The translations under genes were made by a program, and so were the position numbers. Below are positions 41,021 through 64,000 of a stretch of DNA of 64,000 bases, in pieces. Within the stretch, counting starts at the first letter, position 1, and the number at the start of each line of letters is the position of its first letter. Under the pieces are notes generated by a model. The model saw only the letters and a program-made list of their open reading frames with translations, did no database searches and was not told the origin of the DNA. Origin of the DNA: Chlorobiaceae bacterium (GTDB lineage: Bacteria; Bacteroidota; Chlorobiia; Chlorobiales; Chlorobiaceae); NCBI GenBank assembly GCA_013334335.1, contig JAAXXR010000002.1:19126-83125 (forward strand). Reading direction: 5' to 3'.

Positions 41021-41036
41021 TGCAAATGTCATGCCA
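41021..41036 (-). promoter_or_regulatory. Sigma-54 -24/-12 promoter of nifH
   Basis: Minus strand TGGCAT-GACAT-TTGCA, ~90 nt upstream of nifH ATG; consensus TGGCAC-N5-TTGCW. Confidence 0.8.
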
Positions 41037-41188
41037 GAGTCAGGGCGGATGCCGCGATTATATTCCAGGAGGGGCAGGGGATCTTATAAGTATTTATTTT
41101 ATAAACACTTCGATCTTGCCAGAGCTCCGGGTCGGCCGGCGTGATGGCGATGGATTGGCGGTTGGGCGGGTAGTTGTGGCGATTTTAT

Positions 41189-41232
41189 GCTACAGGAATG
41201 TAGGAATGGTCCCGATTCTACATTCCTGTAGC
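41189..41232. promoter_or_regulatory. Tandem palindromes CTACA-N4-TGTAG, candidate enhancer for nifH
   Basis: ctacaggaatgtag (41190-41203) and ctacattcctgtag (41218-41231), 28 bp centre to centre; also pair as a 15-bp inverted repeat. Confidence 0.5.
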
Positions 41233-41413
41233 ACATCCTCAGGGGGCCTGTCCTGTCTGCTGCTTTATTATTACTGCAGTGTGCCGGACGATCGGCTGGA
41301 GGCGACGACCAATTGCAACCGCCGGCGGTGTGTCGATGGACTCATGCCGGTATCCGGAGCAATAAAAGCTACCTATATGTAGAATATTGGGGGTCGGAGA
41401 TTATCTGGCAGAG

Positions 41414-46407: not shown

Positions 46408-48036
46408 TCAGGTCCTGAATTTGCGGTAATCGATGTCGAACTTCTTCATCCGCAGTCCCATGATCCTGTCGGACAGTCCAAGCTGTGCAGCAGCTCGTGA
46501 CATATTGCCCTTGGTACGTTTGAGCGCTTCGATGATCATTTCGTTTTCGATGGCGTCGAGTTTCTGCTGGAGGGAACCGGTGTAGGGGGTTCCGCTCGAC
46601 TCGGCCGTCTGGAGCGATGGCGGCAGATGGTAGCCGTGGATGACGTTGTCCTCGCTCAGGATGACCGCCCGTTCGATGCAGTTCTGAAGCTCCCTTACGT
46701 TGCCAGGCCAGTGGTAGCGAACGAGCATGTCGATGGCGGTTGTGGAGATGCGCCGTATTCCCTTGTGGTTCAGCGTGTTGAACTTTTCCACAAAGTAGTC
46801 GGCCAACAGCATGATGTCGGTTTTCCGCTCCCGGAGGGATGGCACGGTGATCGGGAAGATGTTCAGCCGGTAGTAGAGGTCTTCGCGGAACGCCCCCTCC
46901 CGTATCTGCTCCTCAAGGCTCCGGTTCGTGGCCGCAATGATTCGGACATCGGTTTTGATCGTTTTTGTGCCTCCCAGCCGCTCGAACTCCTTTTCCTGGA
47001 TGATCCTCAACAGTTTCGCCTGGACCGTCAGGCTCAGTTCACCTACCTCGTCCAGGAAGATCGAGCCTCCGTCGGCGAGCTCGAAGCGTCCCTGACGTTG
47101 GGATGCGGCTCCCGTGAAGGCTCCTCGTTCATGGCCGAACAGCTCGCTCTCGACAATGCTTTCAGGGAGGGCCGCGCAGTTGAACTTGATGAATGGCTTG
47201 CCGACCCTGAGGCTTTTGAAGTGTATGGCATTGGCCACGAGCTCCTTGCCGACCCCGCTTTCACCAAGGACGAGGGCCGTGGCGCTGGTGCGGGCAATCT
47301 TGTCGATCATCTTGAAAAGCGAGAGCATCGGCTTTGAATTGCCGATGATGTTTGCCGGCCGTTCGGTCTCGTCGATCTCCTCGTCGATCTCGTCTTCGCC
47401 AGCGCTCTGGGCCGGAATGTGGATGGTCGGAGCTGACGGACGCGGTGAGATCGACTTCTCTTCTGCGGCGAGCTGCTTGAGCCTTACCGCCTGCGAGATC
47501 ATGGCCCCGATGATGGAGAGCAGGTCGACGTAGTACTGGAGCGTATCTTTGCGGAGCTCCTCGGCTTTGCTTTTCCTGCCCGATCCGTTGTCGGCAGGCG
47601 CCGAGAGCCGCCGGTCGGCGCTCAGCGTGCCGATCACCTCGACTCCGGCCTTGATCGGCACGCAGATGAAGCAGAGTTCCTCCTTCTTTTCCTTCGATCT
47701 TGAACCGGTCCGGTCAAGGAATAGCGGCTCCTCGTTGATTCGTGGCACGATCGCCGGCTTGCCGCTTTTGACCACTTTGCCGATGATGCCTTCGCCGATC
47801 TTGTACCGGCCTCTCTGGCTCTCCGTTTCGGTCAGTCCGAATGATTCGTTGATGACGATTTCGCTGGTGTCCCTGTTCAGAATGGTAACCATGCCCCGAA
47901 GCATATTCATATGCTCCGACAGGATGAACAGCACGAGCCGGAGGACCTTGCTTATGTCCTCTTCGTTGTTGACCGTCCTGCTCACTTCCGCGAGAAGGCT
48001 GATGCTGCTTTGTTCCTGCTGATGTGATATGAGCAT
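46408..48036 (-). CDS. nifA: Sigma-54-dependent activator NifA (GAF-AAA-Fis)
   Basis: 542 aa; GAF N-terminus, GESGVGKELVANAIHFKS, GAFTGA motif, C-terminal HTH KGNMSRAAAQLGLSDRIMGLRMKKFDID; adjacent to nifV. Confidence 0.88.
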   Translation of the reverse strand: MLISHQQEQSSISLLAEVSRTVNNEEDISKVLRLVLFILSEHMNMLRGMVTILNRDTSEIVINESFGLTETESQRGRYKIGEGIIGKVVKSGKPAIVPRINEEPLFLDRTGSRSKEKKEELCFICVPIKAGVEVIGTLSADRRLSAPADNGSGRKSKAEELRKDTLQYYVDLLSIIGAMISQAVRLKQLAAEEKSISPRPSAPTIHIPAQSAGEDEIDEEIDETERPANIIGNSKPMLSLFKMIDKIARTSATALVLGESGVGKELVANAIHFKSLRVGKPFIKFNCAALPESIVESELFGHERGAFTGAASQRQGRFELADGGSIFLDEVGELSLTVQAKLLRIIQEKEFERLGGTKTIKTDVRIIAATNRSLEEQIREGAFREDLYYRLNIFPITVPSLRERKTDIMLLADYFVEKFNTLNHKGIRRISTTAIDMLVRYHWPGNVRELQNCIERAVILSEDNVIHGYHLPPSLQTAESSGTPYTGSLQQKLDAIENEMIIEALKRTKGNMSRAAAQLGLSDRIMGLRMKKFDIDYRKFRT

Positions 48037-62087: not shown

Positions 62088-63131
62088 ATGACCGAAGCCC
62101 GATACTGCATGCCGCCCGAATGGGCCCACCACACCTCCACATGGCTTTCGTGGCCGCACAAGCTTGAGTCGTGGCCGGGTAAATTCGAGCCGGTTCCTGC
62201 CGTGTTCGCTGAGCTCGCGTTCCAGCTCAGCCGCTCCGAGCAAGTCAACATCAATGTGCTCGACGAAGCGATGGAGTCTCAGGCCCGACGGCATATGGAA
62301 CTTCGGGATCCCGAAGGCCACTTTGCGAAACGGATACATTATCATCGTATTCCGACCAATGACGCCTGGTGCCGCGACCATGGCCCAAACTATGTATTCC
62401 GGGATCAGGATGGGCGGCGCGACAAGGTGATCCTTGACTGGGACTACAACGCATGGGGAGGTAAATACGAGCCCTACGACGACGATGACGCCGTGCCGTC
62501 GAGGGTGGCCGAGATCCAGCACCTGCCTCGAGTGTCGCCCGGTATGGTGCTCGAGGGCGGCGCGATCGATGTGAACGGCCAAGGGTTGCTCCTGACCACC
62601 GAGGCGTGCCTTCTCAACCCGAACAGGAACCCCTCGTTGGGTCGTGAGGAGATCGAGGAGCGCCTTTGCCGGTACCTCGGCATCCGCAAGGTGCTGTGGC
62701 TTGGCGATGGCATTGCGGGGGACGATACCGACGGGCATGTCGACGATATGACGCGTTTTGTCGGGGCATCGACGGTGGTCACCGCTGTCGAGGATGATCC
62801 GTCCGACGAGAACTATGCGCCGCTGCAAGATAACCTTCGCCGGTTGCAGGGCTTTACCGGCCTCGACGGTCGCCCTCTCGAGATAGTCAGGCTGCCCATG
62901 CCGGACCCGCTCTATTATGACGGCGAGCGCCTTCCGGCAAGCTACGCCAACTTCTATATCGCCAATACCGCGGTCCTGGTGCCGACCTATCGTTGCGCTC
63001 ACGACAGCCGTGCAATCGAGACGCTCCAGAGCTGTTTTCCCGGCCGCGAAGTCGTCGGTATCGACTGTCGTGACCTGATCTGGGGGCTGGGCGCCATCCA
63101 CTGTGTCACTCACGAAGAGCCTGCCCTCTGA
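62088..63131 (+). CDS. aguA: Agmatine deiminase
   Basis: MPPEWAHHTSTWLSWPHKLESWPG, WCRDHGPNYVF, GGAIDVNGQGLLLTTEACLLNPNRNP, GAIHCVTHEEPA. Confidence 0.95.
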   Translation: MTEARYCMPPEWAHHTSTWLSWPHKLESWPGKFEPVPAVFAELAFQLSRSEQVNINVLDEAMESQARRHMELRDPEGHFAKRIHYHRIPTNDAWCRDHGPNYVFRDQDGRRDKVILDWDYNAWGGKYEPYDDDDAVPSRVAEIQHLPRVSPGMVLEGGAIDVNGQGLLLTTEACLLNPNRNPSLGREEIEERLCRYLGIRKVLWLGDGIAGDDTDGHVDDMTRFVGASTVVTAVEDDPSDENYAPLQDNLRRLQGFTGLDGRPLEIVRLPMPDPLYYDGERLPASYANFYIANTAVLVPTYRCAHDSRAIETLQSCFPGREVVGIDCRDLIWGLGAIHCVTHEEPAL

Positions 63132-63160
63132 ATGTCAGTCAGGCCTTCTGATGTCCCGGT

Positions 63161-63214
63161 TGTCTCATATTGCGATAATTGTCTCATAATAAAACAAATA
63201 TTCTCACATTGAGA
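63161..63214. promoter_or_regulatory. Putative enhancer: phased TCTCA elements
   Basis: TGTCTCA at 63161 and 63180, ATTCTCA at 63200 (19 and 20 bp apart); third is a palindrome TCTCA-CAT-TGAGA, first TCTCA-TAT-TGCGA. Confidence 0.45.
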
Positions 63215-63313
63215 TTATTTGTTGCACTCAGGGATACATTGACATTTATATACATTTCCTATAAGTACATGTAATTGTTATACATAACTGCGTTGGTGTT
63301 TTATTCTGTGTTC

Positions 63314-63329
63314 TGGCATACATATTGCA
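63314..63329 (+). promoter_or_regulatory. Sigma-54 promoter for sRNA copy 1
   Basis: TGGCAT-ACATA-TTGCA. Confidence 0.75.
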
Positions 63330-63339
63330 CAATTATTAT

Positions 63340-63430
63340 TGGTCTGCACAGTAACGTCTTGCGCAAGTAAGGCGGAACAGGTGAAATGGGGGACACCTGT
63401 TCACTAAAAAGCGGTCTCAAGCCGCTTTTT
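63340..63430 (+). ncRNA. Chlorobi-1-like sRNA, copy 1
   Basis: Stem 1 cgtctt/aaggcg, stem 2 gaacaggtg/cacctgttc with AAATGGGGGA loop, terminator aaaaagcgg/ccgcttttt. Confidence 0.8.
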
Positions 63431-63529
63431 CATGCAGACCAAATTTTATGATAGGTTGTTGTTCAGCAACGTTGACAGGGTTTTATCGTTCCAGGCAAGG
63501 GCCGGAACGGGTATCTTGAGTCATAGCTA

Positions 63530-63620
63530 CCTATAGATGAGCTGTCTCGTGCAAGCGAGACTGGGCAGGTGAAATGGGGGACACCTGTCCACAAAAGAAG
63601 CGGCTTTGCCGCTTTTTTTG
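63530..63620 (+). ncRNA. Chlorobi-1-like sRNA, copy 2 (5' end approximate)
   Basis: Stem 1 gtctcg/cgagac, stem 2 gggcaggtg/cacctgtcc with AAATGGGGGA loop, terminator aagcggc/gccgctt plus T7. Confidence 0.78.
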
Positions 63621-63729
63621 TTGTATACCACGCTTCTTTTCCGACTTCAGTACCGTTCAGATGAGCAGTAGCTCCATGAAGCGGACCCATCATTCCACGG
63701 TTTCATTTTTTGCTGGTTGTATTTCTTTA

Positions 63730-63757
63730 TGAGACACCTTTGCGTCGAATTGAGACA
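63730..63757. promoter_or_regulatory. Putative enhancer: two TGAGACA elements
   Basis: TGAGACA at 63730-63736 and 63751-63757, 21 bp apart; reverse complement of the TGTCTCA elements at 63161. Confidence 0.4.
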
Positions 63758-63854
63758 TGCCGAAACAGCCATGCGTGCGGGCCTTCGGGTGGTTGTGTCT
63801 GAAAAGCGTTGCTGGGTAAAGGTTTACAGCAGTTCCAGGAAAGCGTCTGCCAAC

Positions 63855-63870
63855 TGGCAGGCTTCTTGCA
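63855..63870 (+). promoter_or_regulatory. Sigma-54 promoter for sRNA copy 3
   Basis: TGGCAG-GCTTC-TTGCA; same 42-nt offset to stem 1 as copy 1. Confidence 0.75.
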
Positions 63871-63880
63871 CCACTACTGT

Positions 63881-63973
63881 TGAATTGTCAAGAAATGTCT
63901 CGCGCCAGTGAGGCTCGGCAGGTGAATGGGGGTCACCTGCCAACAAAAAAAGCGGCTTTTGCCGCTTTTTTTG
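63881..63973 (+). ncRNA. Chlorobi-1-like sRNA, copy 3
   Basis: Stem 1 gtctc/gaggc, stem 2 ggcaggtga/tcacctgcc with ATGGGGG loop, terminator aagcggc/gccgctt plus long T tract. Confidence 0.8.
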
Positions 63974-64000
63974 TTGGATCGGTCAATGTCCGCCGGTCGG

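Follow-up and report, generated by a model that had tools for sequence, protein, structure and literature searches.

Tandem Chlorobi-1 RNAs of green sulfur bacteria with predicted sigma-54 promoters and a co-distributed candidate activator

Introduction

Three hairpin units lie close together near the end of a 64-kb stretch of Chlorobiaceae DNA—hereafter the window, by which we mean the whole stretch that was analysed—and raise the question of which RNA family they belong to, what drives their transcription and which activator, if any, controls them. The units belong to Chlorobi-1, which Weinberg et al. (2010; PMC2864571) presented as a structured RNA of Chlorobi and tabled as not cis-regulatory; the main text of that article gives no function, promoter, regulator or copy architecture for it.

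A tandem cluster of Chlorobi-1 RNAs

All three units match Rfam family RF01696 (Chlorobi-1) above its gathering score of 50 bits, with copy 1 at 63351-63416 (66.2 bits), copy 2 at 63539-63605 (59.9 bits) and copy 3 at 63892-63957 (63.5 bits), each on the forward strand. Copy 1, with three hairpins, extends over 63340-63441, where an outer stem (5' strand 63340-63348, 3' strand 63433-63441) encloses the unit and a terminator hairpin with a short U-tract is found at about 63405-63430. Copies 2 (63539-63621) and 3 (63881-63973) both end in a strong seven-T terminator, and copy 3 has no outer stem. The fold z-score is -7.6 for copy 1 including its outer stem and -6.95 for copy 3. The window copies share with the published family the three-hairpin RNA, the G-rich loop and the Chlorobi host, and a fourth copy is present on a different contig of the source genome.

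Searching across the class, we detected Chlorobi-1 in 47 of 99 genomes, from which 98 credible copies with their flanks were extracted as the comparative set—leaving out the low-scoring Rfam matches G038:C33, G048:C82 and G047:C52 (without the loop). An alignment of 86 distinct sequences reproduced the three-hairpin consensus, with most pairs formed in 95-100% and many compensatory changes, and its G-rich loop AAUGGGGG(A) was almost invariant. Copies overlooked in sRNA-negative genomes were rejected as a complication, since a renewed search of 39 genomes, with more candidates scored, returned only weak matches of 19-25 bits apart from G042.

Two further genomic locations were noted. The six sRNA-positive genomes of the window genus hold a second, syntenic copy (L035 12181-12245 on G000:C30, L048, L050, L051, L053 and L056) with the variant loop GAUCCGUGGGGGAAC, a strong terminator and no sigma-54 element. 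At a third location (L037, L039 and L041; genomes G021, G028 and G038), the RNA lies directly 3' of a gene with an acidic C-terminus, again with no sigma-54 element, and is possibly a 3'-UTR-derived form.

Conservation of the -24/-12 elements

The preliminary description of this DNA had placed -24/-12 elements before copies 1 and 3, each starting 42 nt before the first G of stem 1, and both are found exactly there: TGGCATACATATTGCA at 63314-63329 and TGGCAGGCTTCTTGCA at 63855-63870, on the forward strand, with GG at -24, GC at -12, the correct spacing and a start 37 nt before that of the Rfam model. The pattern TGGCA-N6-TTGCA occurs at three sites in the window against 0.13 expected, a number that no shuffle reached; besides the two elements, these sites include the nifH promoter. 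The shared offset had been considered hard to explain by chance, on the ground that the intervening sequence was not otherwise similar. The offset is real; the premise is mistaken, as the 29 nt between element and stem 1 are identical at 17 positions and differ mostly by transitions. Copies 1 and 3 thus look like duplicates that inherited their equal offset, which for this reason is weak evidence when taken alone. Functional evidence comes instead from a comparison of about 61 promoters in 35 genomes, in which GG and TTG(C) are retained and the spacer has diverged—the GG and the G of TTG being invariant columns and the spacer a variable one.

Orthologous loci had been proposed as a check on the spacing, and there it held, with an offset of 37 nt in all ten copies of the window genus. 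Among the 82 Chlorobiaceae copies with enough upstream sequence, 60 carry an element (at least 9 of 12 consensus positions, at -45 to -22), located 26-38 nt upstream, against 2.5 expected when windows of the same size are placed at random upstream (200 draws, with a maximum of 7). For a second genus of the family, the offset ranges from 26 to 38 nt and is exactly 27 in 35 of 53 copies, a distance that puts the predicted start either on base one of the RNA or on the base preceding it. Start sites in the window would be expected about 12 nt past the -12 GC, near 63340 and 63881. In the literature searched, we found neither transcriptomes nor mapped start sites of green sulfur bacteria; a dRNA-seq study of Chlorobaculum tepidum has reportedly been published.

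Moreover, each of the 75 good genomes has rpoN, and the source genome contains seven strong matches to enhancer-binding proteins. The elements of copies 1 and 3 are almost certainly sigma-54 promoters, judging from their sequence and conservation, and the predicted control by sigma-54 and an enhancer-binding protein is strongly supported by the conserved promoter, the phased upstream sites described below and the presence of rpoN in every good genome. The -24/-12 element was found in none of the 12 Chlorobi-1 copies from other families, a pattern pointing to a change of promoter type in the descent of Chlorobiaceae. A sigma-54 element is likewise missing from the copies of G087-G098 (L049, L052, L054, L055, L057, L060-L064 and L067), which represent other families of the order.

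Palindromes upstream of the promoters

Upstream of copies 1 and 3 we found phased palindromes of the form TGTCTCA-N3-TGAGACA, conserved in relatives, which are candidate activator sites. Copy 1 is preceded by TGTCTCATATTGCGATA (63161-63177) and TGTCTCATAATAAAACA (63180-63196), at -153 and -134 from the -24 element, and by a weaker third candidate, ATTCTCACATTGAGATT (63200-63216), at -114; copy 3 is preceded by TATTTCTTTATGAGACA (63720-63736) at -135 and TGCGTCGAATTGAGACA (63741-63757) at -114. The distances of 114, 134/135 and 153 correspond to steps of about 20 bp, or two helical turns, and put these predicted sites within the region about 80-200 bp upstream where the activator of a sigma-54 promoter would bind. 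Applied to the 61 promoters on which it had been trained, a palindrome model recovered sites in 46, compared with 4.8 in shuffles. An independent test used a 7-mer taken solely from the window and applied to other genomes: it was found in six of eight regions of the window genus (0.24 expected; no more than 2 in any of 500 shuffles) and in 18 of 51 regions of the second genus (1.2 expected; shuffle maximum 5), where many promoters have no clear palindrome.

A candidate activator and its distribution

The regulator that we call E3 is encoded outside the window (G000:C79:25459-26952) and combines a receiver domain, an AAA domain with the GAFTGA loop and a Fis-type helix-turn-helix. Orthologues with at least 53% identity are present in 38 genomes, the next matches lying at about 42%. 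Across the 99 genomes, E3 and a sigma-54-driven sRNA occur together in 35, the sRNA only in one, E3 only in three and neither in 60 (Fisher 4e-22), with G076 counted as sigma-54-driven by assumption, as its contig holds just 11 nt upstream of the RNA. Within the window genus, E3 is found in all six sRNA-positive and in none of 15 sRNA-negative genomes. On a tree of 80 genomes built from one gene (RpoN), a model of dependent evolution outperformed the independent one, with a likelihood ratio of 39.6 and p of about 5e-8. The three genomes with E3 only (G023, G027 and G041) form one group on this tree, the genome with an sRNA and no detected E3 (G042) is 86% complete, and G021 and G058, whose Chlorobi-1 copies have no sigma-54 promoter, also have no E3.

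From this distribution, E3 is quite probably the activator of the sRNA cluster, and it would be expected to bind the palindromes, although its joint inheritance with the sRNA could also have a different cause. The gene is usually preceded by that of a short conserved protein with no Pfam match, which is possibly chlorosome-like, and its neighbourhood holds genes resembling bacteriochlorophyll and carotenoid genes (named by eye). Autoregulation of E3 was rejected, as the 700 nt preceding each of 13 E3 genes contain neither the palindrome nor a -24/-12 element. Elsewhere in the source genome, a palindrome and a sigma-54-like site lie about 115 bp apart before a CysQ-like gene (L112 5455-5586, G000:C94; by eye) and before a glycosyltransferase-4 gene (PF00953; L113 3006-3136, G000:C56); these pairs are possible members of an E3 regulon or possible chance occurrences.

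Paired transcription units

Copy 2 had been described as having no recognisable -24/-12 element, which we confirmed; of the explanations offered for this, read-through from copy 1 gains support from the recurrent order of copies and from an intact structure and terminator, and decay does not. In the six sRNA-positive genomes of the window genus, one type of copy (A) has a promoter and an outer stem, lacks the terminator hairpin or has only a short U-tract, and is followed by a second type (B) with no promoter and a terminator of six or seven T. Ten such A-B pairs were counted; in G013 and G016, the A copy had been missed by Rfam, was predicted by this rule and was then found by eye upstream. 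In the outer stem, the first bases of the transcript (GGUCUGCA) pair with UGCAGRCC just past the U-tract, and pairing in the stem reaches 91%, compared with 20-53% in slid controls. Double-sided changes affect three pairs, two of them the outermost two, and the covariation is modest, with 6 to 143 of 500 shuffles reaching the observed values, depending on the measure.

Since the A-then-B order recurs in six genomes, copies 1 and 2 probably form one dicistronic transcript, as far as their arrangement can tell, and some transcripts should end at copy 1, because its terminator hairpin is stable. Both A copies of G009 have lost the terminator hairpin, so that the B copies of that genome need read-through or an unseen promoter. 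Copy 3 and its counterpart in G010, each with a promoter and a strong terminator, look like single transcription units.

Alternative explanations

NifA had been named as one possible activator, in which case the sRNAs would follow nitrogen-fixation status. The window does encode a NifA-like protein (GAF-AAA-Fis; 46408-48036, reverse strand), and the nif genes share their sigma factor with the sRNAs through the nifH promoter (TGGCATGACATTTGCA, 41021-41036, reverse strand, 89 nt before nifH). The sRNA, however, does not follow this activator: in a census of ten genomes, with classes assigned by frame length and not by alignment, the sRNA-less G001, G002 and G019 keep three activators only, of the FhlA-like, NifA-like and short E5 size classes. 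Nor do the sites point to NifA. TGT-N10-ACA occurs upstream of the sRNAs five times against 2.4 expected, which is no clear enrichment, and words related to the nifH repeat (CTACAGGAATGTAG..CTACATTCCTGTAG) precede one of 98 sRNA copies, itself without a sigma-54 promoter; as the classical motif was not found upstream of nifH either, this comparison of sites counts as evidence and not as proof. That NifA drives the cluster is thus highly improbable, and we rejected it. The same census bears on the remaining activators of the source genome, which encodes E1 (FhlA-like), E4, E5 (short) and the AlgB-like E6 and E7, and a TCTCA-N3-TGAGA site with a sigma-54 promoter 126 bp away does lie near E7 on contig C96. 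Genomes without the sRNA, however, retain activators of the E1 and E5 size classes, and E4, found in 18 of 99 genomes, does not track the sRNA; E6 and E7 are absent from ten sRNA-positive genomes (G013, G028, G029, G038, G043, G046-G049 and G053) and present in the sRNA-negative G006-G008. E4, E6 and E7 were rejected for this mismatch, and it is quite unlikely that any activator of this group drives the cluster. E3 is preferred over NifA because it does track the sigma-54-driven sRNA.

Two other readings concern transcription itself. The -24/-12 matches might be chance, the sRNAs being made from a housekeeping promoter as may be the case in the outgroup families, whose copies have no such element and indicate that Chlorobi-1 can be made without sigma-54. 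Against this stand the excess of elements in Chlorobiaceae copies, their fixed offset, the phased upstream sites and the co-distribution with E3, and no sigma-70-type match was found within 62500-64000; we regard this reading as extremely unlikely. Copy 2, for its part, might be a decaying pseudo-copy and not the second half of a transcript, as its missing promoter would allow, yet it keeps the full structure and the strong terminator, and the A-then-B order is repeated in five other genomes, including G009 with its A copies devoid of terminator hairpins. Decay is accordingly improbable, and read-through from copy 1 is the reading that we retain.

Other regulatory sequences were seen in the course of this analysis. 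An inverted repeat of considerable length (TGCTACAGGAATGTAG..CTACATTCCTGTAGCA, at about 41187-41236) lies about 150-200 bp upstream of the nifH promoter and differs from the palindromes of the sRNAs. The sigma-54 site near E7 (TGGCATATATTTTGCA; L111 5458-5770, G000:C96:23457-23770) is a good match. The sequence after it has no annotation, contains GAATGGGGGGC and can form a very long hairpin (fold z -3.2), so that another RNA driven by sigma-54 may be encoded there. Sigma-54-like sites also precede an Hsp20-like gene with a dnaK-like gene behind it (L116 2832, G000:C85:6831) and an efflux-type operon divergent from the FhlA-like activator (L117, G000:C88:43667).

Discussion

In most relatives, the cluster lies between a gene of agmatine deiminase type (PF04371; 62088-63131, forward strand, in the window) and a convergent malate-dehydrogenase-like gene, and these conserved flanks suggest that it has no cis role. 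We favour an action in trans, which would proceed through base pairing of the G-rich loop. A 7-mer complementary to the loop was present in 23 of 674 ORF starts of the fetched loci, with matches near an oligopeptide-binding-like gene in three loci, in a scan run without a control from which no clear target emerged. The several hairpins with a GGA-containing loop, in several copies, recall RNAs of the CsrB/RsmY type; those titrate CsrA, however, which was found in only one of the 99 genomes of the class, and CsrA titration is hence very unlikely. The sole match (G067:C233:2726-2881; L347) is possibly a contamination.

Taken as a whole, our model proposes that sigma-54 RNA polymerase transcribes copies 1 and 3 from the promoters at 63314 and 63855, with an enhancer-binding response regulator—for which phosphorylated E3 (E3~P), and not NifA, is the best candidate—activating from the palindromes 114-153 bp upstream. 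Transcription of copy 1 would pass the weak terminator into copy 2 and yield a two-unit RNA with its first unit closed by the outer stem, while copy 3 would give a single-unit RNA. With their shared three hairpins and AAUGGGGG(A) loop, the sRNAs would most likely act in trans, either through base pairing with C-rich targets or through a bound protein that is not CsrA. This account builds on what the comparison of genomes established—the RNA family, the conservation of promoters and upstream sites, the co-distribution with E3 and the A/B architecture—and there is a good probability that it is correct in full. To the description of Chlorobi-1 it adds the sigma-54 promoter, the upstream sites, the link to E3 and the A/B units.

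The Qrr sRNAs of Vibrio are sigma-54-dependent. The arrangement proposed here resembles Qrr1-5 in that several homologous sRNAs, redundant or additive in copy number, answer to a response-regulator-type activator, LuxO in that case (PMC7602753). Here the copies and their promoters are seen in the sequence, and the regulator link takes the form of co-distribution; the sequences are unrelated, and the Chlorobi-1 copies are clustered and partly dicistronic. GlmY/GlmZ, CrcZ and NrsZ are similarly sRNAs under enhancer-binding response regulators, namely GlrR, CbrB and NtrC, respectively (PMC7602753), and that article cites a sigma-54 promoter for GlmY (its reference 48). These RNAs differ from Chlorobi-1 in being single-unit, proteobacterial, unrelated in sequence and provided with known targets or bound proteins. 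For this photosynthetic phylum, the literature searched described no circuit of the Qrr/GlmY type in which sigma-54 drives several sRNA copies.

More tentatively, and with somewhat less than even confidence, we propose a dedicated regulon of green sulfur bacteria in which E3, encoded beside a possible chlorosome protein and photosynthesis genes, would have the tandem sRNA cluster as its main conserved output, and in which one genus would make dicistronic 'twin' transcripts with a weakened terminator and an outer stem, in which the 5' end of the transcript pairs with bases beyond the U-tract. If true, the account set out above would extend multi-copy, sigma-54-dependent sRNA circuits like those of Qrr and GlmY to a photosynthetic phylum, and Chlorobi-1, to which its published description gives neither function nor regulation, would gain a class of promoter, candidates for its activator and binding sites, and an architecture for its transcripts.
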